Source: Clostridium sp. DSM 17811 (GTDB lineage: Bacteria > Bacillota > Clostridia > Clostridiales > Clostridiaceae). Taken from it: a stretch of 48,147 nucleotides of DNA. Positions 9,200-41,224 of this stretch are shown one piece after another (position 1 is the stretch's first letter; every line of letters starts with the position of its first letter). The position numbers and the translations under genes are program-made. The stretch is taken from the NCBI RefSeq assembly GCF_018861905.1, contig NZ_JAHLDU010000026.1, forward strand, positions 1-48,147. The letters run 5' to 3'. The notes beneath the pieces are model-generated. The model did not search any database, was not told the origin of the DNA, and saw only the letters and a program-made list of their open reading frames with translations.

Positions 9200-10093
9200 T
9201 TAATCTAAATTCTCATGAACGGTTAGAGGGTTTGCATTTAAGAAATCTATAAATACTTTTGAAACAGTGGATAAACAACAATTTTTTCTCCAAACGAGAG
9301 CAATTTTTATAGGAATAGTATTACATAATGGAATTTTTGTTATTTTATCATTATCTTCAACAATTTCTTTTAATAAAAAAGATATACCAACCCCGTTTGT
9401 AATAAGTCCTTTGACGGTTTCTAAGTGGTTGGACGATAAAATAATATTAGGCTGAACATTTTTTTCTCTAAAACGATCTAATACCTTCTCTCTTATGTAG
9501 AAGCCTTCTTTTAGTAGGATAATAGGTTCGCTTTTAATATCTTCAAATGTAATAGTTGACTTTTTTCTTAACGGATGTTCTTTTTTTAAGCAAACTAAGA
9601 GTTCGCTATCTAAAATAGGCAAGGAAGCTAGTAGATCATTACCTGGGTCACCTATAATAAGACCTAAATCCAAGTCTCCATTTTCTATCATTTGTCTTGT
9701 TTCAATAGATCCATATTCTATAATATTTAGTTTGATATTTGGATACAATTGTTTAAATTTAATAAAAACTATAGGAAATATAAAGGTACCGATCATTGGA
9801 GGGATGCCTATTGTAAGTATACCCTTTTTAAGATCCTCGTAATCCTTCATTTCCGTAGTGGCATTGTCTACTAGTTTTAAAATCTCATCTACTCTCTTTA
9901 AAAAAACTTTTCCTTCAACTGTTGGAAAAAGTTGCTTTTTAGATCTGTCAAAGAGTACACAGGACAGCTCTTTTTCTAAATTCTTAATGGAATTGGTAAT
10001 GGATGGTTGGGTTACGTAAAGCTTTTTTGCAGCTTGTGTAATACTATTTAATTGACAAACCATCTGGAAATATTGTAACTGTCTTAATTCCAT
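9200..10093 (-). CDS. LysR-family transcriptional regulator, divergent to the hdr-flx-frd cluster
   Basis: A 297-residue LysR-type regulator. The N-terminal winged helix-turn-helix covers residues 1-60 (MELRQLQYFQMV, then ITQAAKKLYVTQPSITNSI). A linker helix follows, then a periplasmic-binding-protein-like effector domain (LTIGIPPMIGT, GDLDLGLIIGD, GVGISFLLKE). Length and layout are normal for the family. AGGAGG sits 7 bases upstream of the ATG. It is divergently transcribed from the redox cluster, and a 16-bp dyad lies 28 bases upstream of its own start with a second copy near the cluster promoter. This is the classical arrangement for an autoregulated LysR protein that activates the adjacent operon. 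The effector is not visible; a C4-dicarboxylate is a reasonable guess from the neighbours. Confidence 0.9.
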   Translation of the reverse strand: MELRQLQYFQMVCQLNSITQAAKKLYVTQPSITNSIKNLEKELSCVLFDRSKKQLFPTVEGKVFLKRVDEILKLVDNATTEMKDYEDLKKGILTIGIPPMIGTFIFPIVFIKFKQLYPNIKLNIIEYGSIETRQMIENGDLDLGLIIGDPGNDLLASLPILDSELLVCLKKEHPLRKKSTITFEDIKSEPIILLKEGFYIREKVLDRFREKNVQPNIILSSNHLETVKGLITNGVGISFLLKEIVEDNDKITKIPLCNTIPIKIALVWRKNCCLSTVSKVFIDFLNANPLTVHENLD

Positions 10094-10481: not shown

Positions 10482-10527
10482 GGGAGGTGCAAATCTAGAC
10501 TTATACATTTGTTTAAAAGTCTAGATG
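10482..10527 (+). promoter_or_regulatory. Hairpin between Shine-Dalgarno and start codon of hdrB
   Basis: GGGAGGTG (10482-10489) is a near-perfect ribosome binding site but lies about 36 bases before the ATG at 10525. In between, TCTAGACTT (10494-10502) pairs perfectly with AAGTCTAGA (10517-10525) around a 14-base loop. Folding this 9-bp hairpin removes the intervening bases and brings the site to normal distance. An in-frame TAG at 10522-10524 excludes any start further upstream. Confidence 0.6.
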
Positions 10528-11322
10528 AAAAATATGAAGTATAGTTATTATCCAGGTTGTACGTTAAAGACGAAAGCTCAGAAATTAGAAAAGTATGCAC
10601 TAGATTCTGCAAAAGTCTTGGGGTTTGAGCTAGAAGAGCAAAAAGAGTGGCAATGTTGTGGTGCGGTATATCCAATGGCCACTGATGAAATAGCTACTAA
10701 ATTATCAGCTGTGCGGAGCCTAGCAGCAGCAAGGGATAAAGGTGAAAAGCTAGTCACTTTATGTGCAGCATGTCATCATGTGATTAAAAGAGTAAATGAA
10801 GATATGAAAAGCAAAGAGGATATAAAATCCAAGGTTAACAATTATTTAGACTTGCCAAAAGAATACGAGGGTGAGACACAAGTTCTTCACTATCTAGAAG
10901 TGCTTAGAGATGAAATAGGATTTGATGAACTGGCTAAAAAAGTTACGAATCCTCTTACTAATCGTAAAATTGGTGCATATTATGGTTGTTTGCTCCTTCG
11001 TCCAAGTAGTACCATGAATTTTGATGATCCAGAAAATCCTTCTATTATAGAAGATTTTATAACGGCAATAGGAGCTATTCCAGTTATATATCCATATAGA
11101 ACGGAGTGTTGTGGAGGGTACCTTTGTTTAGAACAGAAGGATCTTGTAAACAAAATGACAGATAATATAATACAATCCGCTGTAAAAAATGGTGCAGAAG
11201 AAATTGTTACTGCATGCCCCCTTTGTAAGTATAACCTAGAAATTAGTAATGATGGGGCAAAAGATAAACTATCTATTACCTATTTCACAGAACTTTTAGC
11301 AGAAGCTTTAGGTGTTAAATAA
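10525..11322 (+). CDS. hdrB: HdrB-like heterodisulfide reductase subunit (two CCG domains)
   Basis: A 265-residue homologue of CoB-CoM heterodisulfide reductase subunit B. It carries both cysteine-rich CCG domains that bind the two non-cubane [4Fe-4S] clusters: C12, C44-C45, C80 and C83 in the first (PGCTL, CCGAV, CAAC), and C155, C195-C196, C231 and C234 in the second (YYGC, CCGG, CPLC). No ligand is missing, so the subunit could still bind or reduce a disulfide, or pass electrons on. It is the first gene of the cluster. Start: ATG 10525, directly behind the hairpin described above; ATG 10534 is an alternative that matches the usual family N-terminus (MKYSYYPGC). The organism's type has no coenzyme M/B, so the physiological acceptor must differ; the downstream fumarate reductase is the candidate. 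Confidence 0.9.
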   Translation: MKNMKYSYYPGCTLKTKAQKLEKYALDSAKVLGFELEEQKEWQCCGAVYPMATDEIATKLSAVRSLAAARDKGEKLVTLCAACHHVIKRVNEDMKSKEDIKSKVNNYLDLPKEYEGETQVLHYLEVLRDEIGFDELAKKVTNPLTNRKIGAYYGCLLLRPSSTMNFDDPENPSIIEDFITAIGAIPVIYPYRTECCGGYLCLEQKDLVNKMTDNIIQSAVKNGAEEIVTACPLCKYNLEISNDGAKDKLSITYFTELLAEALGVK

Positions 11323-11341
11323 GATAGGAGGAGATAGTGTA

Positions 11342-11752
11342 ATGAAAAGAGTGAAAATATATTCAGGCAAAAGATCAAAAGAGTTAGAGCAAATTCTTCA
11401 AATTAGTGGGCAGAGGATACAAGATTGCATCCAGTGTGGAAAATGTTCAGCAAGTTGTCCTGCAAGTGAAGGTATGGATATTCTACCTCATCAGGTCATA
11501 AGATTACTTCAGACAGGAGAACTAGACAAGGTTATAGAGAGTAAAACGATTTGGTCTTGTGCTTCATGTTTTACATGTTCTGAACGTTGTCCTAGGGATA
11601 TAGATATTGCAAACGTTTTAGAGGCAGTGAGACTTATAGTTATTAGGCGTTCAGGAGAAAATAGAATAAAAGCTGAAGACGTTATTAAAAAAATAGATAA
11701 TAAAATGCCCCAACAGGCAATAGTAAGTGCATTTAGAAAATACAATAAATAA
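11342..11752 (+). CDS. hdrC: HdrC-like iron-sulfur subunit
   Basis: A 136-residue HdrC homologue with two classical [4Fe-4S] motifs: C29-x2-C32-x2-C35-x3-C39 (CIQCGKCSASCP) and C73-C76-C79-C83 (CASCFTCSERCP). In Hdr complexes this subunit wires HdrA to HdrB. The start is ATG 11342 with AGGAGG 10 bases upstream; the frame continues up to 11312, but those codons overlap the ribosome binding site. The gap to hdrB is 19 bases and that to hdrA is 48. Length is a little short of methanogen HdrC, with the usual helical tail after the second cluster. It is soluble, with no membrane helix, which excludes the HdrE/HdrD-type membrane system. Confidence 0.9.
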   Translation: MKRVKIYSGKRSKELEQILQISGQRIQDCIQCGKCSASCPASEGMDILPHQVIRLLQTGELDKVIESKTIWSCASCFTCSERCPRDIDIANVLEAVRLIVIRRSGENRIKAEDVIKKIDNKMPQQAIVSAFRKYNK

Positions 11753-11800
11753 TTTTTACATTAAAATAATGATACTGTTATTTTTAAAGGAGGAATCAAA

Positions 11801-13786
11801 TTGCAGAAAATTGGAGTTTTTGTTTGTTGGTGTGGAAGTAATATAGCAGCTACCGTAGACGTTGATAAAGTAATAAAAGAAGCACAAAAAATGCCTGGAG
11901 TTGTATACGCTAAAGACTATCAATATATGTGTTCCGAAGTAGGTCAGAATTTGATCAAAAATGCGATAAAAGATCAAAAATTAGATAGAGTTGTGGTAGC
12001 ATCATGTTCACCTAGAATGCATGAGGCAACATTTAGAAAAGCGGCTAAGGCAGCAGGTCTAAATCCATATTTATTAGAAGTTGCTAATATTCGAGAACAT
12101 TGTTCTTGGATTCATAAGGATAAAGAGATTGGGACGCCTAAAGCTATAGCTCTTGTTAGGGCTGCAGTGGCTAAAGCTACATTAAATAGTGGGCTTACAC
12201 CAGGTCAAATAGATGTAACGAAAAGGGCACTTGTTATTGGTGGAGGAATAGCAGGAATTCAAACTGCTCTTGATATTGCTGAGGCTGGTTATCAAGTTGA
12301 TATCATTGAGAAGTCACCAAGTATTGGTGGTAAGATGTCTCAACTTGATAAAACATTTCCAACACTCGATTGTTCTGCCTGTATTTTGACACCGAAAATG
12401 GTAGATGCCGCATCTCATGAAAATATAACATTATATACATATAGTGAACTTGAGGCAGTTAAGGGCTACGTTGGAAACTTTGAAGCAACCATTAACCAAA
12501 AGGCACGAAGTGTAAATATGGATAAGTGTACTGGTTGTGGTGTCTGTACTGAAAAATGTCCTTCGAAAAAAGCTAAAAGTGAGTTTAATGAAGGATTAAG
12601 AAACAGAGGGGCAATTTATATGCCTTTCGCTCAGGCGGTTCCAAACGTACCGGTTATAGATAGAGAACATTGTATCAAGTTTAAAACAGGAAAATGTGGG
12701 ATTTGTGAAAAAGTATGTACAGCGGGTGCCATTGATTTTGAACAGGTTGATACTAAAATAACAAAACAATATGGTGCTATAGTGGTATCCACAGGTTATG
12801 ATCTTATAAGTTTAGATAAATTTGGAGAATACCAGTATGGTCAGCATCCGGATGTAATAACATCTCTTGAATTTGAGAGATTAACAAATGCTGCAGGTCC
12901 AACAGCAGGTCATTTATTATGCCCATCTGATCAAAGAGTGCCTAAAAAAGTAGTGTTTATACAATGTGTTGGATCAAGGGACAAGACCTTAAGGGGTAAA
13001 CCTTATTGTTCAAAAATCTGTTGTATGTACACAGCAAAACATGCAATGTTACTTAAGGATCATTATCCTGATATGGAAGCCTATGTTTTCTATATTGATG
13101 TTCGTACACCAGGAAAAAACTTTGAAGAGTTCCAGAGAAGAGCTGTTGAAGAATATGGTGTTCATTATATTAAAGGAATGGTTGGTAAAGTTTTTCCAAA
13201 TGGAGAGAATCTTCAAGTTAATGCTATTGATGCTTCGACTGGAGAGACAGTTCAAATTGATGCGGATATAGTAGTGCTCGCTGCGGCAACTAAGGCCAAA
13301 GATGATGCAACTACAATTAAAAGAATATTAGGCATAAGCACAGATACAAATAATTTCTTTACAGAGGCTCATCCAAAACTTCGTCCTGTTGAAACTCATT
13401 CTGCAGGAATATTTCTAGCAGGAGCATGCCAGGGGCCAAAGGATATACCGGAGACAGTAGCACAAGCAAGTGCTGCAGCAGCAAAGGTAATTGGTGTATT
13501 AAGTAAGGATAAATTAGTTAATAATCCTTGTGTTTCAGAAGTAGATGAATCAATTTGTAGTGGATGTCTTGCGTGTACTAAAATATGTCCATATGATGCA
13601 ATTTCATCAAAAACAATTGAAGTTAAAGAGAATGGGAATATCATTACTAAAATAGTTGCAAGTGTAAATGAAGCACTTTGTCAAGGGTGCGGCGGATGTA
13701 CTGTAGCTTGTCGTCCTGGTGCCATTGATCTTAAAGGATTTACTAATAAACAGATTTTAGCGGAGGTGGATGCAATATGTCGATAG
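11801..13786 (+). CDS. hdrA: HdrA-like flavin- and FeS-containing subunit (presumed bifurcating)
   Basis: A 661-residue HdrA homologue of full normal length. In order: an N-terminal domain (CWCG near residues 9-12), the FAD dinucleotide-binding motif GGGIAG (147-152), the HdrA signature TLDCSACILTPKM (188-200), clusters C243-C246-C249-C253 and C291/C299/C302/C306, a thioredoxin-reductase-like body, and a C-terminal ferredoxin domain with C586-C589-C592-C596 and C627-C630-C633-C637. In characterised HdrABC-MvhADG complexes the HdrA FAD is the electron-bifurcation site and its ferredoxin domains lead to ferredoxin; by homology that role is expected here. Start: TTG at 11801 with AAAGGAGG upstream. 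It overlaps flxD by 10 bases, so the two are likely translationally coupled. No Sec/UGA codon is involved. Confidence 0.93.
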   Translation: MQKIGVFVCWCGSNIAATVDVDKVIKEAQKMPGVVYAKDYQYMCSEVGQNLIKNAIKDQKLDRVVVASCSPRMHEATFRKAAKAAGLNPYLLEVANIREHCSWIHKDKEIGTPKAIALVRAAVAKATLNSGLTPGQIDVTKRALVIGGGIAGIQTALDIAEAGYQVDIIEKSPSIGGKMSQLDKTFPTLDCSACILTPKMVDAASHENITLYTYSELEAVKGYVGNFEATINQKARSVNMDKCTGCGVCTEKCPSKKAKSEFNEGLRNRGAIYMPFAQAVPNVPVIDREHCIKFKTGKCGICEKVCTAGAIDFEQVDTKITKQYGAIVVSTGYDLISLDKFGEYQYGQHPDVITSLEFERLTNAAGPTAGHLLCPSDQRVPKKVVFIQCVGSRDKTLRGKPYCSKICCMYTAKHAMLLKDHYPDMEAYVFYIDVRTPGKNFEEFQRRAVEEYGVHYIKGMVGKVFPNGENLQVNAIDASTGETVQIDADIVVLAAATKAKDDATTIKRILGISTDTNNFFTEAHPKLRPVETHSAGIFLAGACQGPKDIPETVAQASAAAAKVIGVLSKDKLVNNPCVSEVDESICSGCLACTKICPYDAISSKTIEVKENGNIITKIVASVNEALCQGCGGCTVACRPGAIDLKGFTNKQILAEVDAICR

Positions 13787-14241
13787 AAGCCGAAAAAATC
13801 GAGGGGATAGATAAAAGTGAATTTGAACCCTTAATTGTAGCTTTTTGTTGTAACTGGTGTAGTTATGCAGGAGCGGATTTAGCGGGGACAAGCAGATTAG
13901 CTTATCCTGCCAATGTTAAAATTATTAGGGTTCCATGCTCATGTAGAGTAAGTGAAAACTTTATACTTCGTGCATTCCAACATGGGGCTGACGGTGTAGT
14001 AATTGCCGGTTGTCATCCAGGGGATTGTCATTATACAAGTGGGAATTATCATACAAGACGTCGTTTTTCAATTTTGACAAATTTGCTTGTATTTATGGGG
14101 ATAGAAAAAGAACGTTTTAGAGTGGATTGGATTTCAGCAGCAGAGGGACAAAAATTTTCAAGCGTTATGAATGACGTATTAGAGAAAGTTCATAAACTTG
14201 GCCCTAATAGAAAGTTGAGGGATGAAAGATGGATAAGATAA
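13777..14241 (+). CDS. flxD: MvhD/FlxD-like [2Fe-2S] adaptor subunit
   Basis: A 154-residue protein of the MvhD (hydrogenase iron-sulfur subunit) family, the electron-transfer adaptor that docks an oxidoreductase module to HdrA. The cysteines are C24-C25-C28 (CCNWCSYAGAD), C54/C56 (PCSCR) and C79/C84 (GCHPGDCHY), followed by the conserved GNYHTRRR and the C-terminal WISAAEG. From memory, the family usually has PCSGR; here the glycine is a cysteine (C56). Its place between hdrA and the flx genes agrees with the FlxD role of linking NADH oxidation to HdrA. It overlaps hdrA (10 bases) and flxC (13 bases). The start ATG at 13777 has GGAGGTGGA upstream inside the hdrA coding sequence. Confidence 0.9.
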   Translation: MSIEAEKIEGIDKSEFEPLIVAFCCNWCSYAGADLAGTSRLAYPANVKIIRVPCSCRVSENFILRAFQHGADGVVIAGCHPGDCHYTSGNYHTRRRFSILTNLLVFMGIEKERFRVDWISAAEGQKFSSVMNDVLEKVHKLGPNRKLRDERWIR

Positions 14242-15212
14242 CACAAAAAATAAGAGAAACTGCAAAATTAGCCCTAGAAAATGGGGAAGTAGAAAAGATT
14301 ATAGGCTGGGAAAAGGGAGATACATTTGATGATTCTTATCCCGTGTTTATTACAGATGTCGATAAAGTAGATTCTTTAGTATGGGATTGTTTCTGCGTTA
14401 ATAACCTAAGTAAATACTTGCTTAAGGAATTAAAAGATAATAAAAAAGTAGGTATATTTTTAAAAGGATGCGATTCCCTTGGATTTAACCAACTTATAAA
14501 TGATAACAGAGTAGATCGAAGCAAGGTTGTTGTTTATGGAATAGGTTGCCCCGGTATGATTGATCCAGAAAAAGTAAAAAAAGAAGGATTAGATAAAGGC
14601 CTTTTAAGTGTTAAAAGATCTGGGGATGAAATCATATTTGTAAGAAATGATGGTGAAAAGAAGGTTACCTCAAATGAATTTGAATATGATAAATGCATTA
14701 GATGTAGACGGCTTAACCCTGTAGTGTATGATCAGATGATGTCTGATACGGTAACTAGAGAAGTAGATCCACTAGAACGATTTAAAGAAGTGGAAAAACT
14801 TGAAGCTCTAACTGATGAAGAAAAATCTGATTTTTGGTCTGCTCAATTTTCAAAATGCATAAGGTGTAATGCTTGTCGTAATATATGTCCTGCATGTAGT
14901 TGCGTAAAATGTATTTTTGATAACGATAAGGCAGAGGTATCAGGTAAAGCAAATGTAGAAAGTGAAGAGCAGTTTTATCATATTATTAGGGCTTATCACG
15001 TTGGCGGTCGTTGCGTGGACTGTGGAGAATGTAGCAGAGTATGTCCAGCAAATATACCACTTTACCTATTAAATAGTAAAATAATGAAAGACATAAATGA
15101 ACTTTATGGTGAATATGATGCGGGAGTAGATCCAACTAAACAAGCCCCAATCGGAATGTTTAAACTGGATGATAGTGATTCATTTACATCACACGGAGGT
15201 GGGAAAAAATGA
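14229..15212 (+). CDS. flxC: FlxC-like iron-sulfur subunit
   Basis: A 327-residue iron-sulfur protein. The N-terminal half resembles the FrhB/FdhB fold (FLKGCDSLGFNQL near 78-89, YGIGCPGMID near 103-112). It contains extra cysteine pairs C54/C56 and C156/C159. The C-terminal half has C210-C213-C216-C220, immediately followed by C223/C225/C228, and then C262-C265-C268-C272, so two or three [4Fe-4S] clusters are likely. In the known flxABCD-hdrABC clusters this is the third Flx subunit, relaying electrons between FlxB and FlxD. The ATG at 14229 lies inside flxD (13-base overlap) with GAGGGATGA upstream. It is soluble. The assignment rests on gene order plus cysteine pattern; the exact route of electrons through it is not known. 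Confidence 0.8.
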   Translation: MDKITQKIRETAKLALENGEVEKIIGWEKGDTFDDSYPVFITDVDKVDSLVWDCFCVNNLSKYLLKELKDNKKVGIFLKGCDSLGFNQLINDNRVDRSKVVVYGIGCPGMIDPEKVKKEGLDKGLLSVKRSGDEIIFVRNDGEKKVTSNEFEYDKCIRCRRLNPVVYDQMMSDTVTREVDPLERFKEVEKLEALTDEEKSDFWSAQFSKCIRCNACRNICPACSCVKCIFDNDKAEVSGKANVESEEQFYHIIRAYHVGGRCVDCGECSRVCPANIPLYLLNSKIMKDINELYGEYDAGVDPTKQAPIGMFKLDDSDSFTSHGGGKK

Positions 15213-16243
15213 TGAAGAAAATATTAAAAAATAAGTTTTCGGATCTTTTTAGTAAAATTGATGAATCTTATGAACTGTTTTTGCCTATTGAAGTGGATGG
15301 GAAAGTTAACTTTGATATGTGGAAACAAGGAGATATGGTGAATGTAGAAAAACTGAAAACTAATATTTCACCAAAAAGCTTTATTTTCCCACAAAGTGAA
15401 ACTTACTTAAAGTTTAAAAGGGATGGAAAGAAACTTGAACTGGACAATGTAGGAGGAAAAAAAGAGGAGTATGTATTATTTGGAGTCAGGCATTGCGATG
15501 CAAGGAGCTTTAAGCTACTTGACAATGTATTTCTCAGTGATCCTGTAGATGCTTTATATGAGGAAAGGCGAGAAAAAGGAACTATAGTTTCAATGGCCTG
15601 TTTTAATCCTGCGGAAACTTGCTTTTGTAGTTCATTTGGGATTGAGCCACAAACAGCTTCGAAGGAAGTTGATGTTAACACATGGGATATTGGGGATAGC
15701 ATACTTTGGGATCCACAAACTCAAAAGGGTGAAAACTTAACAAAGCAATTAAAGGATATTTTAGAAGATGTTACTGAGCAGGATAAAAGTGAATTAAATG
15801 CATTACAAGAGGCTACAAATGATAAGTTAAAAGAGCTTCCTTTAGCAAACCTAGACCCTAAAAAAATAAAAGGTGAGCTTAATGAGTTATTTGAATCTGA
15901 AATTTGGGGAGAACTTAGTCAGCGGTGCTTAGGATGTGGTTCATGTACTTATGTATGTCCTACTTGTCATTGTTATGATGTTTCTGATTTTAAAGGGGAT
16001 ACATCTGGAGAAAGATTCCGTTGCTGGGATTCATGTATGTTCTCGGATTTTACTCTTATGGCACATGGGAATATCAGAAAAACGCAAAAGGAAAGATTCA
16101 GGCAGCGTTTCATGCATAAGCTTGTTTATTATCCCAATAATAATGAGGGTGTATATGCTTGCGTTGGATGTGGAAGGTGCGTTGAAAAATGTCCAGTTCA
16201 CTTGGATATTGTTAAAGTAATTAAAAAGTTGGGTGGTGAATAA
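15209..16243 (+). CDS. flxB: FlxB-like (AsrA-type) dicluster iron-sulfur subunit
   Basis: A 344-residue protein related to the anaerobic sulfite reductase A subunit/FlxB, which carries electrons from the NAD(P)H-oxidising subunit onwards. The N-terminal ~230 residues form the AsrA-like domain with GVRHCDARS (92-100) and CFNPAETCFCSSFG (131-144), a cysteine-rich segment. The C-terminal part holds two [4Fe-4S] motifs, C240-C243-C246-C250 and C318-C321-C324-C328, with CPTCHCYD just after the first. The start is ATG 15209 (or the adjacent ATG 15212), overlapping the flxC stop by 4 bases, with GGAGGTG upstream: tight coupling. No sulfite reductase catalytic subunit (AsrC) is present nearby, which argues against an Asr complex. 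Confidence 0.85.
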   Translation: MMKKILKNKFSDLFSKIDESYELFLPIEVDGKVNFDMWKQGDMVNVEKLKTNISPKSFIFPQSETYLKFKRDGKKLELDNVGGKKEEYVLFGVRHCDARSFKLLDNVFLSDPVDALYEERREKGTIVSMACFNPAETCFCSSFGIEPQTASKEVDVNTWDIGDSILWDPQTQKGENLTKQLKDILEDVTEQDKSELNALQEATNDKLKELPLANLDPKKIKGELNELFESEIWGELSQRCLGCGSCTYVCPTCHCYDVSDFKGDTSGERFRCWDSCMFSDFTLMAHGNIRKTQKERFRQRFMHKLVYYPNNNEGVYACVGCGRCVEKCPVHLDIVKVIKKLGGE

Positions 16244-16244
16244 A

Positions 16245-17096
16245 ATGAGCTGTACTTGTAATGAACATGAACATGTGAACCCTTTAATGCCAGAAATAGC
16301 TGAGATAATTGATGTTAGAAAGGATACACATGATGTAACTACTTTTAGAGTTATAAAACCTGGTGGTGGAAAACCATTTGAACATATGCCAGGTCAATGT
16401 GCAATGATTTCGGTTCCTCCATTTGGAGAAGCTATTTTCTCAATCACTTCTTCTCCAACGCAAAAGGATTATATGGAGTTTAGTGTAAAAAGATGTGGTG
16501 TGGTTACAGAATATCTACATGGTTTAGAGGTAGGCAGTGAAATCGGAATAAGAGGACCCTATGGAAATAATTTTCCTGTTAATGATGAACTAAAAGGAAA
16601 AGACCTTCTTTTCATCGGTGGTGGAATAGGTTTAGCACCTATTCGTTCTGTTATAAACTATGTAATGGATAATAGAGAAAATTATGGAAAGGTAGATATT
16701 CTATATGGATCAAGATCACCTGAAGATCTTGTTTTTCAAAAGGACATCTTTGAAAACTGGCCATCGAGGCCTAATACAGAGGTTCATTTAACTGTTGATA
16801 GAGAAGCCGAAGGATGGGAAGGACATGTAGGATTTGTTCCATCTTATGTTAAAGAAATTGGATTTGATACAAATAAAGTAGCCTTGTTATGTGGGCCACC
16901 TATCATGATTAAATATACTCTTCAAACACTTATGGAAATAGGATTTAAGAAGGATCAGGTATACACAACGTTAGAATTAAAAATGAAATGCGGCGTAGGA
17001 AAATGTGGACGTTGTAATATTGGAGATAAATATGTGTGTAAAGATGGTCCAGTATTTAGATGCGATGAAATAGATGAACTTCCTGATGAATATTAA
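16245..17096 (+). CDS. flxA: FlxA-like NAD(P)H-oxidising FAD/[2Fe-2S] subunit
   Basis: A 283-residue ferredoxin-NADP reductase-like protein of the AsrB/PyrK/FlxA type, the probable NADH entry point of the complex. It has an FAD-binding barrel (GQCAMISVP near 50-58, FSITSSPT near 65-72, RGPYGNNFP), the nicotinamide-binding GGGIGLAPIRS (125-135) and CGPPIM (216-221), then a C-terminal [2Fe-2S] motif C249, C254, C257, C265 (CGVGKCGRC). It begins with an unusual CTC-x5-H segment at residues 3-10 that could bind metal. Start: ATG 16245, one base after the flxB stop with GGGTGGTG upstream; in-frame GTGs at 16233/16236 overlap that site. NADH rather than NADPH use is inferred from studied Flx systems, not from sequence. 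Confidence 0.88.
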   Translation: MSCTCNEHEHVNPLMPEIAEIIDVRKDTHDVTTFRVIKPGGGKPFEHMPGQCAMISVPPFGEAIFSITSSPTQKDYMEFSVKRCGVVTEYLHGLEVGSEIGIRGPYGNNFPVNDELKGKDLLFIGGGIGLAPIRSVINYVMDNRENYGKVDILYGSRSPEDLVFQKDIFENWPSRPNTEVHLTVDREAEGWEGHVGFVPSYVKEIGFDTNKVALLCGPPIMIKYTLQTLMEIGFKKDQVYTTLELKMKCGVGKCGRCNIGDKYVCKDGPVFRCDEIDELPDEY

Positions 17097-17115
17097 TAAT
17101 AAATCGTTTAAAACC

Positions 17116-17136
17116 ATCCCATTAAAGATTTGGGAT
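17116..17136 (+). other. Small intercistronic hairpin before frdB
   Basis: ATCCCA (17116-17121)/TGGGAT (17131-17136) form a 6-bp stem with a 9-base loop, ending directly at the AAAGGAGG ribosome binding site (17137-17144) of the next gene. It lacks a U-tract. It may mark an mRNA processing or stability boundary between the Hdr-Flx genes and the fumarate reductase genes. Confidence 0.35.
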
Positions 17137-17152
17137 AAAGGAGGCATATAAA

Positions 17153-17833
17153 ATGTCCAACAAAGAAATGGTGGAAATATACATATTAAATAAAAAATAT
17201 TCTGTACCTTCAAGTCTTACAATTATGGATTCGATGGAGTATGCAGGGTACAAATTAGTAAGAGGATGTGGATGTAGGGGCGGCTTTTGCGGTGCTTGTT
17301 CCACAATATATAGAATTAAAGGCAAGAATGAATTAAAGGTATGTTTAGCATGTCAAACTAAGGTTGAAGATGGTATGTATCTTACTCAATTGCCATTTTT
17401 CCCTGGAGACAAAAGAACTTATGATATGAATGAACTAGAGCCAACAGCTGATACAATGATGAAACTTTATCCTGAAATATATAGCTGTATTGGTTGTAAT
17501 TCATGTACTAAGGGGTGTCCACAAGGGCTTAATGTTATGCAGTATATTGCCAGTGCTCAAAGAGGAGATATTGAGAAATGTGCTCATGAATCTTTTGACT
17601 GTGTAATGTGCGGAATCTGTGCTTCTAGATGCCCAGCTGGTATAACTCATTATCAAGTAGCAATGCTTGCTCGAAGACTTACAGGCAAATATATTGCTCC
17701 TGAAACAGAAGATTTGACAAAAAGGGTAAAAGAGATTCAAGAAGGCACGTATGATGATTCAATGAAAGAATTAATGATTAAAAGTATAGATGAATTAAAG
17801 GAATTATATAACACAAGAGATATTACAAAGTAA
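17153..17833 (+). CDS. Fumarate reductase-type iron-sulfur subunit
   Basis: A 226-residue SdhB/FrdB/TfrB-related subunit. An N-terminal plant-type [2Fe-2S] domain has C41, C46, C49 and C64/C67 (GCRGGFCGACS, CLAC). A helical domain follows with C112-C115-C118-C122 (CIGCNSCTKGCP) and C150-C153-C156-C160 (CVMCGICASRCP). The last motif is a full CxxCxxCxxxCP, so a second [4Fe-4S] cluster is expected where quinone-linked FrdB has a [3Fe-4S] cluster; this resembles HdrC. Methanogen TfrB has a fused HdrB-like CCG domain, which is absent here, while hdrB is a separate gene upstream. Start: ATG 17153 with AAAGGAGG 8 bases upstream. The gap to the flavoprotein gene is 50 bases. No membrane anchor gene is present, so the complex should be soluble. 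Confidence 0.88.
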   Translation: MSNKEMVEIYILNKKYSVPSSLTIMDSMEYAGYKLVRGCGCRGGFCGACSTIYRIKGKNELKVCLACQTKVEDGMYLTQLPFFPGDKRTYDMNELEPTADTMMKLYPEIYSCIGCNSCTKGCPQGLNVMQYIASAQRGDIEKCAHESFDCVMCGICASRCPAGITHYQVAMLARRLTGKYIAPETEDLTKRVKEIQEGTYDDSMKELMIKSIDELKELYNTRDITK

Positions 17834-17883
17834 AGAGCACCAATAAATCTCATAAAATATAGGTTTACCAGGGAGGTATTTTA

Positions 17884-19494
17884 ATGTATACAGCAGAAAT
17901 GAGGGTGCTAATAAAGAAGGTAGAGGCCACCCGTGAGCAAAGACTAGGAGTTCAGTTTCCGAGGATGAGTGCTAAGGAAAAGGAAGATATATTAAAGGAA
18001 AATTATCCGGATTATAAGGAAGAAGAGTTCAAAAATCTAAGTGTTGGACCGAGCAAAGGATCTAAGGTTCCATTACAACTTGCAGAACTTATTGAAGCTA
18101 AAAGCAGACTTCAAAATTTAGATATGGATTTAACTAAAGTGGATTATGATGTAGATGTTTTGATAATAGGCGGAGGAGGAGCTGGAGCATCAGCAGCTCT
18201 AGAAGCCCACAAAACAGGAGCAAATGTATTGATTGCCACAAAATTACGTTTCGGTGATGCCAATACGATGATGGCTGAAGGTGGAATACAGGCTGCAGAT
18301 AAGCCAGATGATTCTCCTGCAAAACATTACATGGATGTAATGGGAGGCGGACATTTTACCAATAAAAAAGAACTTGTTAATGCTCTTGTAATGGATGCTC
18401 CAGGAGCAATAAAATGGTTGAATGAACTTGGGGTAATGTTTGATAAAGAAAAAGATGGTACAATGGTCACTACTCACGGAGGTGGAACTTCAAGAAAAAG
18501 AATGCATGCTGCTGCCGACTATTCAGGAGCTGAAATCATGCGTGTCCTTAGGGATGAAGTTATTAACAAAGGTATCGAAGTGGTAGAATTCTCACCTGCT
18601 GTGGAGATAATCCTAGACAAGGATGGCAAAGCTGCTGGAGCTGTATTATTTAATATAGAAACAGAGGAATATCTAATAGCAAGAGCTAAAACTGTTATTA
18701 TAACCACAGGAGGTGCCGGACGACTTCATTATCAAGGTTTTCCTACAACAAATCATTACGGTGCTACAGCAGACGGGTTAGTACTTGGATATAGAGCCGG
18801 AGCTGAACTCATTTTCGCAGATGCTGTGCAGTATCACCCTACAGGAGTAGCATATCCTCCACAAATTTTTGGAGCACTTGTTACGGAGAAGGTTCGTAGT
18901 TTAGGGGCGACACCTCTAAATATTGATGGTGAGCAATTTACTTACCATCTTGAAACCAGAGATGTGGAAACATCTGCATTAATTAGAGAATGTCATATAA
19001 GAAATAAAGGTATTGATACAGCTGCAGGGGAAAAAGGCATATGGCTAGATACTCCTTTAATAGAATTAATTAATGGTGAAGGAACAATTGAAAAGAGACT
19101 TCCAGCAATGCTAAGAATGTACCAAAAATTTGGTATTGATATGAGAATAGATCCAATTCTCGTATATCCAACACTTCATTATCAAAATGGAGGACTTTTA
19201 ATTGATGAAAATGGTCAAACTAAGGTAGAAAACCTTTATGTGGCAGGAGAAGCTTCAGGTGGAATCCACGGTAGTAACAGGTTAATGGGTAATTCACTAT
19301 TAGATATTATTGTTTTTGGACGTAGAGCAGGGTCACATGCAGGCGAAAATTGCAAAAATGTTAATGTGAAAGAACTTAGTCTTGACCATGTTAAAAAATA
19401 CCATAAGAGTCTTGAAGAAAATGGTATAATTACAGACAAAATCTCTCCTATGTTGTTACCACATTATACTCATGGAAGAGAAAATAATAAATAA
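17884..19494 (+). CDS. Soluble fumarate reductase-type flavoprotein subunit
   Basis: A 536-residue FAD protein of the SdhA/FrdA/TfrA family, expected to reduce fumarate to succinate. The FAD motif GGGGAG is at ~96-101. Active-site residues are conserved: H318 (QYHPTG), R359 in TRDVETSAL (proton-donor Arg of the family), and H432 (LHYQNGG); the C-terminal GEASGGIHGSNRLMGNSLLD FAD segment is intact. Three things are odd. The position of the covalent FAD-linking His (SHT in E. coli FrdA) is Asn127 (ANTMMAEGG), so FAD should be non-covalent. About 90 residues precede the Rossmann fold (RLGVQFPRMS, NYPDYKEEEF). The usual C-terminal helical domain of ~130 residues is almost entirely missing. L-aspartate oxidase is unlikely given the iron-sulfur partner. 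Start ATG 17884 has GGGAGGT upstream. Confidence 0.85.
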   Translation: MYTAEMRVLIKKVEATREQRLGVQFPRMSAKEKEDILKENYPDYKEEEFKNLSVGPSKGSKVPLQLAELIEAKSRLQNLDMDLTKVDYDVDVLIIGGGGAGASAALEAHKTGANVLIATKLRFGDANTMMAEGGIQAADKPDDSPAKHYMDVMGGGHFTNKKELVNALVMDAPGAIKWLNELGVMFDKEKDGTMVTTHGGGTSRKRMHAAADYSGAEIMRVLRDEVINKGIEVVEFSPAVEIILDKDGKAAGAVLFNIETEEYLIARAKTVIITTGGAGRLHYQGFPTTNHYGATADGLVLGYRAGAELIFADAVQYHPTGVAYPPQIFGALVTEKVRSLGATPLNIDGEQFTYHLETRDVETSALIRECHIRNKGIDTAAGEKGIWLDTPLIELINGEGTIEKRLPAMLRMYQKFGIDMRIDPILVYPTLHYQNGGLLIDENGQTKVENLYVAGEASGGIHGSNRLMGNSLLDIIVFGRRAGSHAGENCKNVNVKELSLDHVKKYHKSLEENGIITDKISPMLLPHYTHGRENNK

Positions 19495-19586
19495 TAAAAC
19501 TAAATGTAATACAGTTTGAAAGGCGATGATACAAAAAAATAGACCATTGCTTGGAAAATTAAAAAAATGGAAGGAGTTGTTGGTTC

Positions 19587-20429
19587 ATGCGTAAAGTTGA
19601 TGTAAAAGAAATTGAAAATGCTTTAAAAGACATGAGTATTAAGACTAATTTTTATGTGGGAGAAGACGTATTATGCGCCTTTCACAAAGCCGAAAAGGAA
19701 GAAACATCTCCTGTAGGAAGAGATATAATAAGTAATTTGCTTAAAAATGCTGAAATTGCGAAAAATGATCAAGTTCCAATTTGTCAGGATACAGGTATGG
19801 CTGTAGTATTTGTAGAAGTAGGTCAAGAAGTTGAGTTAATAGGTGGAAATATTACAGAGGCAATTAATGAAGGAGTACGACGTGGATATAAAGAAGGATA
19901 TTTAAGAAAATCCGTTGTAGAAGATCCTTTAAAACGAAAAAACACAGGAGATAATACTCCTGCTGTAATCTATTATGATATTGTGCCAGGTGATAAAGTC
20001 AAAGTAACATTAGCTCCAAAAGGTTTTGGTAGTGAAAATATGAGTAGATTAAAAATGCTTAAACCATCAGATGGGTTAGCTGGTGTACTTGATTTTGTTG
20101 TAGAAGCGGTTTCACTTGCAGGTCCAAATCCATGTCCACCTATTGTTGTAGGTGTTGGAATTGGAGGCACATCAGATAAAGCAATGTATCTTGCTAAGAA
20201 AGCTTTAACAAGAGATATTGGTAGTCATAATAAAACTGAGCATTTAAAAGAAATTGAGTTAACTTTACTAGAAAAAATTAATGCACTAGGAATAGGACCT
20301 CAAGGACTAGGTGGTAATACTACAGCCCTTGCCGTTAATGTGGAAGCTTTTGCAACACATATTGCTGGATTACCAGTGGCAGTAAATATTAATTGTCATG
20401 TTGCAAGACATGCAATAACAATAATATAG
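19587..20429 (+). CDS. Class I fumarase/tartrate dehydratase-type hydro-lyase, alpha subunit
   Basis: A 280-residue alpha subunit of the two-subunit, oxygen-sensitive [4Fe-4S] hydro-lyases (fumarase class I; TtdA is the tartrate relative). The three cluster cysteines are C66 (ICQDTGM), C183 (PNPCPP) and C270 (NCHVARH). VGVGIGGTSDKA and GPQGLGGNTTALAV are typical family signatures. The enzyme interconverts malate and fumarate, or dehydrates L-tartrate to oxaloacetate. Because it lies right after the fumarate reductase genes, fumarase is the better call: it supplies fumarate from malate. Start: ATG 19587 with AAGGAG 10 bases upstream. The beta subunit follows after 12 bases. Confidence 0.88.
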   Translation: MRKVDVKEIENALKDMSIKTNFYVGEDVLCAFHKAEKEETSPVGRDIISNLLKNAEIAKNDQVPICQDTGMAVVFVEVGQEVELIGGNITEAINEGVRRGYKEGYLRKSVVEDPLKRKNTGDNTPAVIYYDIVPGDKVKVTLAPKGFGSENMSRLKMLKPSDGLAGVLDFVVEAVSLAGPNPCPPIVVGVGIGGTSDKAMYLAKKALTRDIGSHNKTEHLKEIELTLLEKINALGIGPQGLGGNTTALAVNVEAFATHIAGLPVAVNINCHVARHAITII

Positions 20430-20441
20430 GGAGGGGTAAAA

Positions 20442-20993
20442 ATGGAAATCAAACATATAACTACTCCATTAACACAGGAGAAGTTAAAGGATTTAAAATC
20501 AGGAGATAGTGTCTTAATATCAGGAACTATGTATACAGGAAGAGATGCAGCTCATCAAAGGTTAGTAGATGCAATTAACAATGGTGAAAAATTACCTTTT
20601 GATCCAAAAGATGCCATTATATATTATGTAGGACCTGCTCCAACTAAACCTGGAAATGTAATAGGGTCTGCTGGTCCAACTACTAGTTATAGAATGGATG
20701 ATTTGACTGTTCCACTTCTTGAACTAGGTCTTACTGGAATGATTGGAAAAGGACTTAGAAGCAAAACTGTAGTAGATTCAATGAAGAAAAATGGTGCTAT
20801 TTATTTTGCTGCAATAGGAGGAGCTGGAGCTCTCATTTCTAAATCAATAAAAGAATGTGAAATTATTGCTTTTGAAGATTTGGGTCCAGAAGCCGTTAGG
20901 AAACTTACGGTAGTAGATTTCCCGGCCGTTGTTGTAATAGACAGTGAAGGTAATAATCTTTATGAGACAGAAAGAAAAAAATATCAAAAATAG
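20442..20993 (+). CDS. Class I fumarase/tartrate dehydratase-type hydro-lyase, beta subunit
   Basis: A 183-residue beta subunit partner of the preceding gene, corresponding to the C-terminal domain of single-chain class I fumarases. Visible signatures are SGTMYTGRDAAHQR, YYVGPAPTKPG, GSAGPTTSYRMDD, MIGKGLRSK and IGGAGALIS. These shape the substrate pocket; the cluster ligands are in the alpha subunit. Length is normal for stand-alone beta subunits. Start: ATG 20442 with GGGAGGGG upstream and a 12-base gap to alpha, so the pair is co-translated. Fumarase and tartrate dehydratase cannot be told apart with certainty from sequence alone. Confidence 0.88.
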   Translation: MEIKHITTPLTQEKLKDLKSGDSVLISGTMYTGRDAAHQRLVDAINNGEKLPFDPKDAIIYYVGPAPTKPGNVIGSAGPTTSYRMDDLTVPLLELGLTGMIGKGLRSKTVVDSMKKNGAIYFAAIGGAGALISKSIKECEIIAFEDLGPEAVRKLTVVDFPAVVVIDSEGNNLYETERKKYQK

Positions 20994-21022
20994 AATAGCA
21001 AGATAACCTAATAAAATTAAAT

Positions 21023-21055
21023 AGGGGGGCGTATTAATTAAGTACAAGCCCCCCT
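21023..21055 (+). other. GC-rich intercistronic hairpin before the transporter gene
   Basis: AGGGGGGC (21023-21030) pairs with GCCCCCCT (21048-21055) around a 17-base AT-rich loop. The stem is by far the most GC-rich spot in an AT-rich gap of 123 bases between fumarase beta and the transporter. It is followed by TATAAATT rather than a U-run, so a partial terminator or a processing/stability element that lowers transporter expression is more likely than a full stop. Confidence 0.5.
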
Positions 21056-21116
21056 TATAAATTAAGGTATGGTAGCTAAAATATTTACAAATAAGTAAAA
21101 TAAGGGAGCTTTAATT

Positions 21117-22547
21117 ATGACAAAAAGTTCTAGTAATTCGTTATATTCTGAAAAGTATATTAAGTTTTTAATAGCAATTATCGTAGGTATTATTATATGG
21201 TTTATACCAGCACCTATTGGAGTTAAACCTCAGGCCTGGCACATGCTTGCAATTTTTGTTGCAACAATAGTAGGGTGCATTTTAAAACCGTTTCCGATTG
21301 GAGCGTTGTCTATAATAGGATTAACTGTATCAATTCTAACGGGAACTGTAACTACCAAAATTGCAATTGAAGGTTTTGGCAATAGCAGTATATGGCTTAT
21401 AGTTATGGCATTCTTTATTTCGAGAGGTTTCATAAAAACAGGTCTCGGAACAAGAGTCGCTTATCTATTTGTAAGATCATTCGGGAAAAAGACCCTTGGG
21501 CTTTGTTATTCAATTATTTTCTGTGATCTTGTAATAGCACCTGCTACTCCAAGTAACACAGCAAGAGCAGGTGGAATAATTTATCCTATTATAAAATCTC
21601 TTTCGGAAGCTTTTGGTTCGAAACCTGAGGATGGAACTGAAAGGAAAATAGGATCTTTTCTTATATTCTGTGAATTTCATGGAGATATTATAACTTCTGC
21701 AATGTTTATGACAGCAATGGCAGCTAATCCATTAGCTCAGAGTCTTGCTGCAACTTTTGGAGTTCAAATTACTTGGCTTGGGTGGTTTATAGCGGCTGTT
21801 GTTCCAGGTGTTATTTCTCTTATAGTAATACCTCTTATAATTTATAAACTATATGCACCAGAAATTAAAAGTACACCTAATGCACCAAAATTTGCTAATG
21901 ATGCTCTAAAAGAAATGGGACCTCTTAAAAGAAGTGAAAAATTTATGGCATTAATATTTGTTATAGTACTTATTTTATGGGTAACAGGAACCATAACTAA
22001 TATAGATGCAACACTTACAGCATTTATTGGACTTTCTCTTCTTTTAACTACCGAAGTTCTAACTTGGGATGATGTAAAGAGTGAAAAGGGAGCTTGGGAT
22101 ACGCTCATGTGGTTCTCTGTACTTGTTATGATGGCAACTCAGCTTAATAAACTTGGGCTAATACCATGGCTTAGTAATGCAATTGGACAAAATGTAAAGG
22201 GATTTAGTTGGCCTATTATTTTAATTGTTTTACTTTTAGCTTATTTCTATAGTCACTATATTTTTGCAAGTTCAACAGCACATGTAAGTGCTATGTACTC
22301 AGCATTTCTTGGAGTTGCAATAGCAGGAGGAGTACCACCTATGCTTGCAGCTATAAGTTTAGGAGTATTTGGAAATCTATTTGCTTCAACAACTCATTAT
22401 AGTAGTGGTCCTGCACCTATTCTTTTTGGTTCAGGTTATGTAAGTCAGAATAAATGGTGGAGTTTAAACTTTATTCTTGGAATAGTATACTTTGTTATAT
22501 GGATTGGTGGAGGTTTAGTATGGTGGAAAATTATTGGATTATATTAA
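21117..22547 (+). CDS. DASS-family anion transporter (C4-dicarboxylate/succinate antiporter-like)
   Basis: A 476-residue polytopic membrane protein of the divalent anion:Na+ symporter (DASS) family, which includes CitT (citrate/succinate) and TtdT (tartrate/succinate) antiporters. About a dozen hydrophobic segments are visible, beginning with one at residues ~14-32. The two substrate/ion signature regions are present: PSNTARAGG near residue ~145 and STTHYSSGPAPILFGSG near the C-terminus. Length matches CitT/TtdT (~487). It follows the fumarase genes after a GC-rich hairpin and is probably the last gene of the cluster. I infer uptake of malate, fumarate or a related acid in exchange for succinate, the expected end product. 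Start: ATG 21117 with AAGGGAG upstream. Confidence 0.85.
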   Translation: MTKSSSNSLYSEKYIKFLIAIIVGIIIWFIPAPIGVKPQAWHMLAIFVATIVGCILKPFPIGALSIIGLTVSILTGTVTTKIAIEGFGNSSIWLIVMAFFISRGFIKTGLGTRVAYLFVRSFGKKTLGLCYSIIFCDLVIAPATPSNTARAGGIIYPIIKSLSEAFGSKPEDGTERKIGSFLIFCEFHGDIITSAMFMTAMAANPLAQSLAATFGVQITWLGWFIAAVVPGVISLIVIPLIIYKLYAPEIKSTPNAPKFANDALKEMGPLKRSEKFMALIFVIVLILWVTGTITNIDATLTAFIGLSLLLTTEVLTWDDVKSEKGAWDTLMWFSVLVMMATQLNKLGLIPWLSNAIGQNVKGFSWPIILIVLLLAYFYSHYIFASSTAHVSAMYSAFLGVAIAGGVPPMLAAISLGVFGNLFASTTHYSSGPAPILFGSGYVSQNKWWSLNFILGIVYFVIWIGGGLVWWKIIGLY

Positions 22548-24243: not shown

Positions 24244-26238
24244 TTATAGTGCATTCCTAACAGAGAGTATAAATTTAGCTCTATCTAAAGGATTAACACC
24301 AATTCTTTCCCTTGTGGCTCCTATTTCTAAGGAGCAGGGTTCATAACCTGAAAAACTGGTTGTGATTATTGCTTTTCCGGAAGCGATTTTACTAAGGTCA
24401 CTGGGATATTCAAGGGAAGTAGAGACAGGCATTTTACCTTCTATTGTAAAGGTACCGTTATGTATAAATGGTGTTTCAAAGCTACCACGCATTTTTATGA
24501 TATCATTTAAAACTCTTCCACCTACATTCTCAGGTACTGTAATTCTAAAATTAATTATGGGTTCAAGTAGGGTAGTGCCAATCTCGCGTAGGCCTCTCAT
24601 GATCCCCATGGCAGAGGATGCGGCAAAGTCTCCTGAACGTGAATGCATAACATGGTCTTCACCATTGGTGAAGGTTATTTTTAAATCCGTAACTGGCCAT
24701 CCATATATGCCTTGACTTAAAATTTTATCGAGATTATCTTCTATTTCTCTTTGATATTTTATTTTTACCTTTTCAGTTCGAACCTTTGATTCATAAATAA
24801 GTCCACTTCCTTTTGGCAGTGGCTCAATTAAAAATTCAACTATAGCCCAGCAGGGTTTAGGCATAGTGTAACGCGATTCACCATACCCACTTGCTATAGG
24901 AGTTTCTCTGTAGATAACAGAGGGCGAACCAAAAGTAACTTGCACATTAAATCTTTCCATTAAAATATCTTCAATATATTCAATTTGAATTTTACCCATA
25001 ATTCTAAGATGAATTTCTTTTTTTTCTTTTATCCATTCCATGTTAAGAAGAGGATCTTCCTCTTGAAGTATTGTTAAAGCTTCAACCAAAGTTACATAGT
25101 CTTCCTGAACTTTCGAATAAATTCTTAAGGTGAGAAGAGGAGTTGTGATAGTTTTAAGATTAGGAATATGAGTTTTACTTCCAAGGACATCATAGGTGCT
25201 ACAATTTAAGCCACTCACCATTACCAAATCACTACTGCTTGCCGATGATACATCAATTGATTTTTGATTAACTACTTTTTTAATCATAGTAATCTTTTCT
25301 CTTTTGTTTGTAGTTACATTTAGAATATCATCTCTAGTAGATATTGATCCACTAAATATCTTTATATGAGCTATTTTACCTAAAGTTTTGTTATGGGATA
25401 TCTTATATACAAGGGCTGAAAGTCCTAAATCATCTAAATTCTCAGGTCCTGGGAGATAATCTATTATGCTATGAAGCAAGTCTTTAATTCCTTCACCTCT
25501 TAGTGCTATACCATATAGCACAGGGTAAACTTGGCCAGTATTTGCTTGCAATGTTATCTCACTTTTTAACATTCCTAGGGTTAAAGTCTCGCCAAAGAAT
25601 TGATTTAAAATTTCCTCATTATTATTACCCAGTGTATCTATTATATCTTCGAGTAATTGTTTAAAGGATTCATCTTTTATTTCTAATATGTTTTTTGCGA
25701 AATCTACATTGTCAAATATGTTCCTAACGATAAATTCGTTGTTTTCTTCATAAACTAATTGTAGTGGTATAAGTTTATTAGTTAGAAGCTTTTTCATATC
25801 CTTAATAGTTTTATAGGGAGATGCCCCTATACGGTCAAGTTTGTTTATAAAGAATATTGAAGGTGTATTTAATTCTTTTAAAGCATTAAAATATACCTCG
25901 GTTTGAGGTTGTACTCCTTCGACAGATGATAATACAACTATAGCTCCATCAAGAACGCCTATACTTCTTTCTACTTCAGAACTAAAATCAATATGCCCAG
26001 GTGTATCTATAACATGTACATTAGTTCCTTTGTAAGTAAAATCTGTTTCAGCAGCCTTAACTGAAATACCTCTTTGCTTTTCCATAGCTAAAGAATCTGT
26101 ATGGGTTGTACCCTTATCTACGCTGCCTAGAATCCTGCTAGAACCACTTTGGTAAAGTAGTTGCTCGGTTAAAGTTGTTTTGCCAGCATCTACATGAGCT
26201 ACTATTCCAATATTTCTAATATTATTTTTTATCGTCAT
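24244..26238 (-). CDS. TetM-like ribosomal-protection-type translational GTPase
   Basis: A 664-residue EF-G-like GTPase of the TetM/TetO family, which releases tetracycline from ribosomes in studied members. All G motifs are intact: AHVDAGKTT (14-22), RGISV, DTPGH and NKLD, followed by EF-G-like domains II-V and a C-terminal SGYEPC tail. The domain IV loop equivalent to the TetM segment YSPVS is instead HSRSGDF, so residues that touch the tetracycline site in TetM are not conserved; resistance cannot be assumed. The usual resistance leader peptide or mobile surroundings are absent, which suggests a chromosomal paralogue. Start: the second of two ATGs (26238) has GGAG at normal spacing; the first (26244) is too close. 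Monocistronic, divergent from the U32 gene. Confidence 0.85.
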   Translation of the reverse strand: MTIKNNIRNIGIVAHVDAGKTTLTEQLLYQSGSSRILGSVDKGTTHTDSLAMEKQRGISVKAAETDFTYKGTNVHVIDTPGHIDFSSEVERSIGVLDGAIVVLSSVEGVQPQTEVYFNALKELNTPSIFFINKLDRIGASPYKTIKDMKKLLTNKLIPLQLVYEENNEFIVRNIFDNVDFAKNILEIKDESFKQLLEDIIDTLGNNNEEILNQFFGETLTLGMLKSEITLQANTGQVYPVLYGIALRGEGIKDLLHSIIDYLPGPENLDDLGLSALVYKISHNKTLGKIAHIKIFSGSISTRDDILNVTTNKREKITMIKKVVNQKSIDVSSASSSDLVMVSGLNCSTYDVLGSKTHIPNLKTITTPLLTLRIYSKVQEDYVTLVEALTILQEEDPLLNMEWIKEKKEIHLRIMGKIQIEYIEDILMERFNVQVTFGSPSVIYRETPIASGYGESRYTMPKPCWAIVEFLIEPLPKGSGLIYESKVRTEKVKIKYQREIEDNLDKILSQGIYGWPVTDLKITFTNGEDHVMHSRSGDFAASSAMGIMRGLREIGTTLLEPIINFRITVPENVGGRVLNDIIKMRGSFETPFIHNGTFTIEGKMPVSTSLEYPSDLSKIASGKAIITTSFSGYEPCSLEIGATRERIGVNPLDRAKFILSVRNAL

Positions 26239-41213: not shown

Positions 41214-41224
41214 AGGAAGTAAAA

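Follow-up and report, generated by a model that had tools for sequence, protein, structure and literature searches.

A candidate soluble electron-bifurcating NADH:fumarate/ferredoxin oxidoreductase encoded by an hdr-flx-frd operon in Clostridium sp. DSM 17811

The stretch of DNA analysed here, called the window, comprises 48,147 nucleotides from Clostridium sp. DSM 17811 (contig NZ_JAHLDU010000026.1 of assembly GCF_018861905.1). It carries an operon that joins genes for a heterodisulfide reductase-like module (HdrABC) and its Flx partner (FlxABCD) to genes resembling fumarate reductase (FrdB and FrdA). According to the open reading frame (ORF) listing, all genes of the operon, at positions 10525-22547, are intact and lie on the plus strand in the order hdrBCA-flxDCBA-frdBA, followed by a two-part fumarase and a DASS transporter (Table 1). 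Domain searches and ORFs place all seven FlxABCD-HdrABC subunits within this single operon, and both FlxA and FlxB are similar to sulfhydrogenase subunits. These results bear out the gene content, strand and span given in a preliminary description of the locus, which had also called the genes partly overlapping. Overlaps are present inside the Hdr-Flx part, measuring 10 bases for HdrA/FlxD, 13 for FlxD/FlxC and 4 for FlxC/FlxB; FlxB/FlxA and HdrB/HdrC overlap by 11 bases each with GTG starts and not at all with ATG starts. The Frd genes fall outside this range, because gaps of 56 (FlxA-FrdB), 50 (FrdB-FrdA), 92 (FrdA-FumA) and 123 bases (FumB-DASS) separate the remaining genes. No plus-strand terminator-like site was found in these four gaps by a scan whose yield is near the level of shuffled sequence (nine sites found; shuffle mean 6.1, standard deviation 2.8).

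Table 1. Genes of the hdr-flx-frd operon and the divergent regulator gene in the window
Feature	Coordinates	Strand	Remarks
LysR-type regulator (presumed)	9200..10093	-	Divergent from operon; ORF
HdrB	10525..11322	+	Two CCG domains; Frd-associated lineage
HdrC, short form	11312..11752	+	Start GTG 11312 or ATG 11342; 4Fe-4S dicluster
HdrA, candidate bifurcating flavoprotein	11801..13786	+	TTG start
FlxD	13777..14241	+	MvhD-like, PF02662
FlxC	14229..15212	+	Fe-S protein; related to formate dehydrogenase beta subunit of Hdr complexes
FlxB	15209..16243	+	Fe-S protein; resembles sulfhydrogenase beta subunit
FlxA	16233..17096	+	FAD/NAD(P)H oxidoreductase; start GTG 16233 or ATG 16245
FrdB-like	17153..17833	+	[2Fe-2S] domain and HdrC-like dicluster with two [4Fe-4S] motifs; without CCG domain
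FrdA-like	17884..19494	+	PF00890, fumarate reductase fold; N-terminal extension 1-87
Fumarase, first part of two-part enzyme (presumed)	19587..20429	+	ORF; outside conserved core
Fumarase, second part (presumed)	20442..20993	+	ORF; adjoins first part in related loci
DASS family dicarboxylate transporter	21117..22547	+	PF00939; local addition

The arrangement is not unique to this genome. A search of species genomes confirmed at least 504 relatives of FrdB; the analysis went on with the best 80, so these loci represent the nearest relatives. Among the matches listed, the FrdB proteins closest to that of the window in named records come from Clostridium lacusfryxellense (L005, 95% identical) and a Clostridium metagenome-assembled genome (L006, 91% identical). 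FlxA lies upstream and FrdA downstream of FrdB in all 80 loci (tblastn). A test that required intact ORFs at the expected spacing was passed by FrdA in 79/80 and by FlxA in 63/80, with the 17 FlxA failures comprising three cut loci and 14 over-long mechanical FrdB starts. In each of the 63 loci with more than 8 kb of upstream sequence (17 of the 80 being too short there), all seven hdr and flx genes are found upstream of frdBA on the same strand and within 9.5 kb. By title, the records are mostly from Clostridia (Bacillota), with Fusobacteriota (Cetobacterium) and Treponema also represented; L084 is labelled Bacteroidaceae, which may be a binning error. The preliminary description had included the fumarase and the transporter in the unit, and this part did not hold. 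What we take to be the fumarase genes adjoin the core in 24/80 loci by ORF and 25/80 by tblastn, and a DASS homologue is present in none of the 80, of which 64 hold 5 kb of downstream sequence. The fumarase and DASS genes are no conserved part of the unit.

Co-occurrence was examined in a phylum sample of 398 genomes that includes that of the window. FrdB is present in 39 genomes (E 1e-30) and HdrA in 128 (E 1e-180), with both in 35. HdrA is thus found in 35/39 genomes with FrdB versus 93/359 without it (Fisher odds ratio 25, p 4e-15, uncorrected for kinship, with ten of the 39 FrdB genomes belonging to one family). The gene contexts of frdBA in these 39 genomes are varied. Six have the full hdr-flx set adjoining (the window; L137, L139, L143 and L144, with frdBA first; and L122, with the order CBA). 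Eleven have HdrCBA together with FlxD and an additional HdrA-like protein, but without FlxA or FlxB matches; ten of these come from one family (L125 and L152 are cut by contig ends) and the other is L149. Five show HdrCB-FrdBA with HdrA not seen alongside. In eight, frdBA stands apart with fumarase (and in L134 also malic enzyme) and the hdr-flx operon is elsewhere in the genome; in one of these, G130, HdrB is cut off and HdrA is in pieces, and in L138 an FMN-binding Fe-S protein adjoins FrdBA as a possible other electron input. Three genomes of one genus have no HdrA, with pyruvate carboxylase adjoining frdB in L117 (Pfam) and L147 (equal ORF length), the third being L120. In three others (L128, L130 and L132), the gene after FrdBA encodes a protein in which an HdrC-like stretch precedes a cytochrome b part, the latter matching the Pfam cytochrome b561 domain in L128 and L130, and this combination is possibly a membrane-bound version of the enzyme. 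NapC/NirT-like cytochromes, another possible electron input, adjoin FrdBA in two (L127 and L131), and the remaining genome has no such partner beside frdBA. As a separate observation, L115 and L149 encode HdrA-like proteins of 1091 and 1488 amino acids that carry extra flavin domains and precede FlxD-FrdBA, with no FlxA or FlxB matches.

Comparison with Hdr-Flx operons of another type indicates which subunits differ when FrdBA is present. Seventeen operons, here called classical (15 from genomes without a FrdB match plus one each from G252 and G044), have the order hdrCBA-flxDCBA, whereas most FrdB genomes have hdrBCA-flxDCBA, linked to frdBA or not, or have an HdrCB of their own that adjoins or precedes FrdBA. 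In a tree of HdrB, 40 Frd-associated rows split from the 17 classical rows and L149 with support 100/100. Of the 68 linked BCA loci, 19 entered the tree, together with every one of the 39 rows in the other three groups (L171, which yielded no HdrB, dropped out). The tree carries warnings of long branches for L149, L159 and L122 and of odd composition for L149. G252 and G044 each carry one HdrB of either kind (L136 and L178; L150 and L179). HdrC, measured as mechanical ORF length, has at most 160 amino acids in 88/90 Frd-linked or Frd-co-occurring loci versus 189-227 in 17/17 classical operons; the exceptions are L149 and one protein of 197 amino acids, perhaps due to an early start codon. Seven FrdB genomes with separate frdBA have a Frd-type hdrBCA-flx operon elsewhere. 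Where HdrA is 62.7-64.5% identical to that of the window, HdrB is 51-55% identical in six FrdB genomes with unlinked frdBA (L153-L158) but only 35-39% identical in three Frd-free genomes (L162-L164). The ratio of between-group to within-group distance for 26 BCA and 17 CBA operons is highest for HdrB (1.83), followed by HdrC (1.55), FlxD (1.48), HdrA (1.31), FlxA (1.29), FlxB (1.27) and FlxC (1.21), with FlxD found in 12/17 classical and FlxA in 25/26 Frd-type operons, and with HdrA genes split by TGA represented by the longer piece. Because the Frd-associated HdrB lineage is separate, HdrC is short, and divergence is greatest in HdrB and then HdrC, these acceptor-side subunits look adapted to Frd, although common descent accounts for part of the pattern.

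HdrA retains features expected for electron bifurcation. Residues 3-659 of the 661 in the window protein align with the solved HdrA structure 5odc_A, such that K413 and E359 correspond to K409 and E356. This Lys/Glu pair, which is held to mark bifurcating HdrA proteins (PMC12054007), is conserved in all 102 loci examined, and domain searches show that the ferredoxin domains are retained. In many phylum-sample genomes the HdrA gene contains a single in-frame TGA, probably encoding selenocysteine; the window HdrA frame is without TGA.

FrdB and FrdA are conserved at their expected functional sites. The 12 cluster cysteines of FrdB are invariant in 56/56 aligned rows (55 of 58 representatives, drawn from 97, plus the window). 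FrdA has the fumarate reductase flavoprotein fold, and residues H318, E335, R338, R359, H432 and R466, whose His and Arg members are presumably catalytic, are invariant in 61/61 rows (60 of 64 representatives, drawn from 105, plus the window). The FAD-binding His is replaced by N127 in the same 61 rows, and FAD is predicted to be bound non-covalently. The helical C-terminal domain PF02910 gave no match in FrdA at E 0.01. The best curated family for FrdA is TfrA of the methanogen CoM-SH/CoB-SH:fumarate reductase, below cut-off (341.2 of 718 bits). On the TfrB model (488 positions, cut-off 385 bits), FrdB matches 18-186 (34.0 bits) and HdrB matches 261-487 (39.6 bits), and the two thus resemble the two halves of TfrB. 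Identity with TfrAB was rejected since FrdB has no fused CCG half and the scores lie under the curated cut-offs; the window also differs in having the TfrB-like parts in two proteins that are tied to Flx-Hdr. L-aspartate oxidase was likewise rejected, with FrdA reaching 267.7 of the 452.75 bits required for NadB and a separate NadB-like gene present in the genome.

A second family resembles the Frd side of the operon. In the E-type SdhABE 8-methylmenaquinol:fumarate reductases, SdhB has a second [4Fe-4S] cluster and partners SdhE, a protein with a 10-cysteine motif (PMC2680327). By motif, both features are present here, in the two [4Fe-4S] motifs of FrdB and the 10-cysteine CCG protein HdrB, and the top-scoring model for the window HdrB is SdhE (162.9 bits, below the cut-off of 500). 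A CCG protein partnering an FrdB-type subunit is known twice, as SdhE and, in fused form, as the C-terminal half of TfrB, and we infer that HdrB and FrdB are partners as in the E-type enzymes. The window differs from SdhABE in that its likely donor is NADH and a quinone pathway was not found in its genome by the two families tested (six weak matches to MenD, none over cut-off, and no match to the MqnA/D family). The same genome has an RnfC gene over cut-off and one further CCG frame.

Taken together, the operon probably encodes a soluble, quinone-free, electron-bifurcating NADH:fumarate/ferredoxin oxidoreductase, a reading to which we assign somewhat better than even chances. Synteny, co-occurrence and the distinct HdrB/HdrC lineage lend good support to fumarate as the putative high-potential acceptor of the Hdr module, as the preliminary description suggested, and the HdrA Lys/Glu pair is conserved. 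The idea had already been published (PMC7282089). FlxA would oxidize NADH and pass electrons through FlxB, FlxC and FlxD to the HdrA flavin, which would split each pair. The low-potential electron would reduce ferredoxin, while the other would travel via HdrC to the two CCG clusters of HdrB, then directly into the iron-sulphur chain of FrdB and on to the FAD of FrdA, where fumarate would become succinate. HdrB would thereby take the role of SdhE in E-type enzymes and of the C-terminal half of methanogen TfrB, and reduced ferredoxin could feed Rnf, permitting ion pumping from fumarate without menaquinone. We infer each electron-transfer step, the direct HdrB-FrdB contact and the use of ferredoxin as second acceptor. 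With potentials of +33 mV for fumarate, -320 mV for NADH and -450 to -500 mV for ferredoxin, as given in the literature, the fumarate arm yields about -68 kJ/mol and the ferredoxin arm costs +25 to +35 kJ/mol. The calculated coupled reaction is downhill because the first exceeds the second, in agreement with the earlier expectation of thermodynamic plausibility.

Several observations weigh against this assignment. HdrA (E 1e-40) is missing from 4/38 FrdB genomes other than that of the window, and frdBA is located beside cytochromes, the HdrC-cytochrome b protein or pyruvate carboxylase in some genomes. Because FrdBA occurs without HdrA and beside other partners, it can take electrons from other donors; given the varied partners across contexts, FrdBA is a portable module with several possible donors. 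The HdrA tree also separates the two operon groups, so the HdrB split is partly common descent, although the separating branch is short for HdrA (0.06-0.10, median end branch 0.09) compared to that for HdrB (about 1.1, median end branch 0.20). In L149, HdrB and HdrC are both of classical type despite nearby frdBA; its genome, G281, holds the sole TfrB over cut-off among the 398. HdrC matches the middle of the TfrB model (123-226) with 41.9 bits, more than the 34.0 bits of FrdB, and the fusion argument consequently leans on the [2Fe-2S] part of FrdB. Whether Frd-type HdrB scores higher with the SdhE or with the HdrB profile varies, the lean to SdhE being positive in four of six Frd rows (the window, L020, L143 and L115, but not L153 or L136), negative in 4/4 classical rows, and positive in L149. 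HdrB also has all ten CCG cysteines expected of a disulfide reductase, as the preliminary description had noted, and these are kept in the window, in 40/40 Frd-associated proteins and in 17/17 classical proteins compared.

This last feature is consistent with a thiol/disulfide shuttle, in which HdrB reduces some disulfide and FrdBA oxidizes the dithiol with fumarate in the manner of TfrAB acting on CoM-SH and CoB-SH, and the ranking of TfrA as the best family for FrdA fits as well. However, FrdB lacks the CCG half by which TfrB would meet thiols, and CCG clusters need not mean disulfide chemistry given the 10-cysteine motif of SdhE (PMC2680327), whose model is named as a subunit of a quinol enzyme. 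Furthermore, HdrB diverges along with Frd, something for which a diffusible shuttle would have no need, and we regard the shuttle as unlikely. The Hdr-Flx proteins might instead merely serve as a wire in a plain, non-bifurcating NADH:fumarate reductase, since a potential difference of about 350 mV can be spanned without a ferredoxin arm and non-bifurcating complexes with HdrA homologues are stated to exist (PMC9430772). The invariant K413/E359 pair and the retained ferredoxin domains of HdrA make this decidedly improbable.

Another proposal keeps the Hdr-Flx and FrdBA proteins functionally separate, with only their regulation shared and electrons for FrdBA coming from another donor. In the regions fetched, 17 of the 39 phylum genomes indeed have no hdr gene, or only the HdrC-cytochrome b protein, beside frdBA. 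At least eight of these 17 nevertheless have an hdr-flx operon elsewhere (incomplete for HdrB and HdrA in G130, as described above), and the HdrB/HdrC lineage follows Frd even when unlinked, leaving this proposal very unlikely. Finally, such complexes can be reversible, and the neighbouring fumarase in the window would suit a reaction in which reduced ferredoxin drives succinate oxidation to NADH. That net reaction would be uphill by about 33-43 kJ/mol at the potentials used above, and Asn replaces the FAD-binding His in every aligned FrdA. In E. coli FrdA, losing the covalent FAD bond costs succinate oxidation more than fumarate reduction. We consider reverse use the least probable of these explanations.

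The preferred reading, a bifurcating NADH:fumarate/ferredoxin oxidoreductase, has a direct precedent. The same idea was put forward in 2020 for the 'succinate operon' of Pseudoclostridium thermosuccinogenes (PMC7282089), where fumarate-coupled ferredoxin reduction is an assumption and a 2019 preprint by Koendjbiharie and van Kranenburg is cited for the proposal. That operon, like the one in the window, includes fumarase, Flx-Hdr, fumarate reductase and a possible transporter, and the window shares its defining combination of Flx-Hdr and fumarate reductase in one operon. Compared by description only, the two differ in that locus tags place the P. thermosuccinogenes fumarase at the Flx-Hdr end, whereas that of the window follows frdA. 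The operon is therefore a conserved and widespread member of a kind already proposed; what is new here is the sequence evidence on which subunits are fitted to the fumarate end. No purified enzyme of this kind was found among the open-literature titles and abstract beginnings listed, with subscription papers and preprints outside that scope.

Other known systems share only some of the modules. The 17 Frd-free-type operons compared (D. vulgaris not among them) have the order hdrCBA, a long HdrC and the other HdrB lineage. To our knowledge, the FlxABCD-HdrABC system of Desulfovibrio vulgaris comes without FrdBA. Its donor and bifurcating modules are the same by name (Ramos 2015). The acetogen HdrBCA-MvhD-MetVF methylene-THF reductase likewise couples an Hdr module to a non-disulfide acceptor enzyme, and pull-downs indicate an HdrB-MetF interaction (PMC9430772), although acceptor and donor both differ from those of the window.

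A broader scheme, which we advance tentatively at slightly less than even chances, is that HdrB-HdrC and FrdB-FrdA form a portable fumarate-accepting cartridge. HdrB would have been re-fitted from a disulfide reductase to a direct donor for FrdB, and the cartridge would combine with various HdrA and donor units (NADH via Flx, units that carry a second and larger HdrA-like protein, or HdrCB alone), so that Clostridia, Fusobacteriota and Spirochaetota could respire fumarate through Rnf without a quinone. If bifurcation to fumarate is true, menaquinone-free anaerobes would respire fumarate with a soluble enzyme while conserving some of the energy in reduced ferredoxin, and calculations of yield and hydrogen for succinate-forming organisms would change. 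The Frd-type HdrB/HdrC lineage could also serve as a sequence marker that distinguishes fumarate-directed Hdr-Flx operons from others, making the physiological acceptor of bacterial Hdr-Flx proteins directly testable.

The window contains additional features of note. The divergent gene upstream of hdrB, which we take to encode a LysR-type regulator from its sequence likeness, has a counterpart at the equivalent position in L005 (87% identical) and L006 (71%). Tandem genes for tRNA-Glu(ctc) and tRNA-Gln(ctg) are located at 1777-1938. An EF-G-like GTPase of 666 amino acids with GTP_EFTU, EFG_IV and EFG_C domains, encoded at 24244-26244 on the minus strand, could be of the ribosomal-protection type. 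Encoded within 37784-46917 are a UDP-sugar dehydrogenase, a Gfo/Idh oxidoreductase, NeuB and a CBS-nucleotidyltransferase; the region is presumably a cluster for surface sugars of the sialic or legionaminic acid type.

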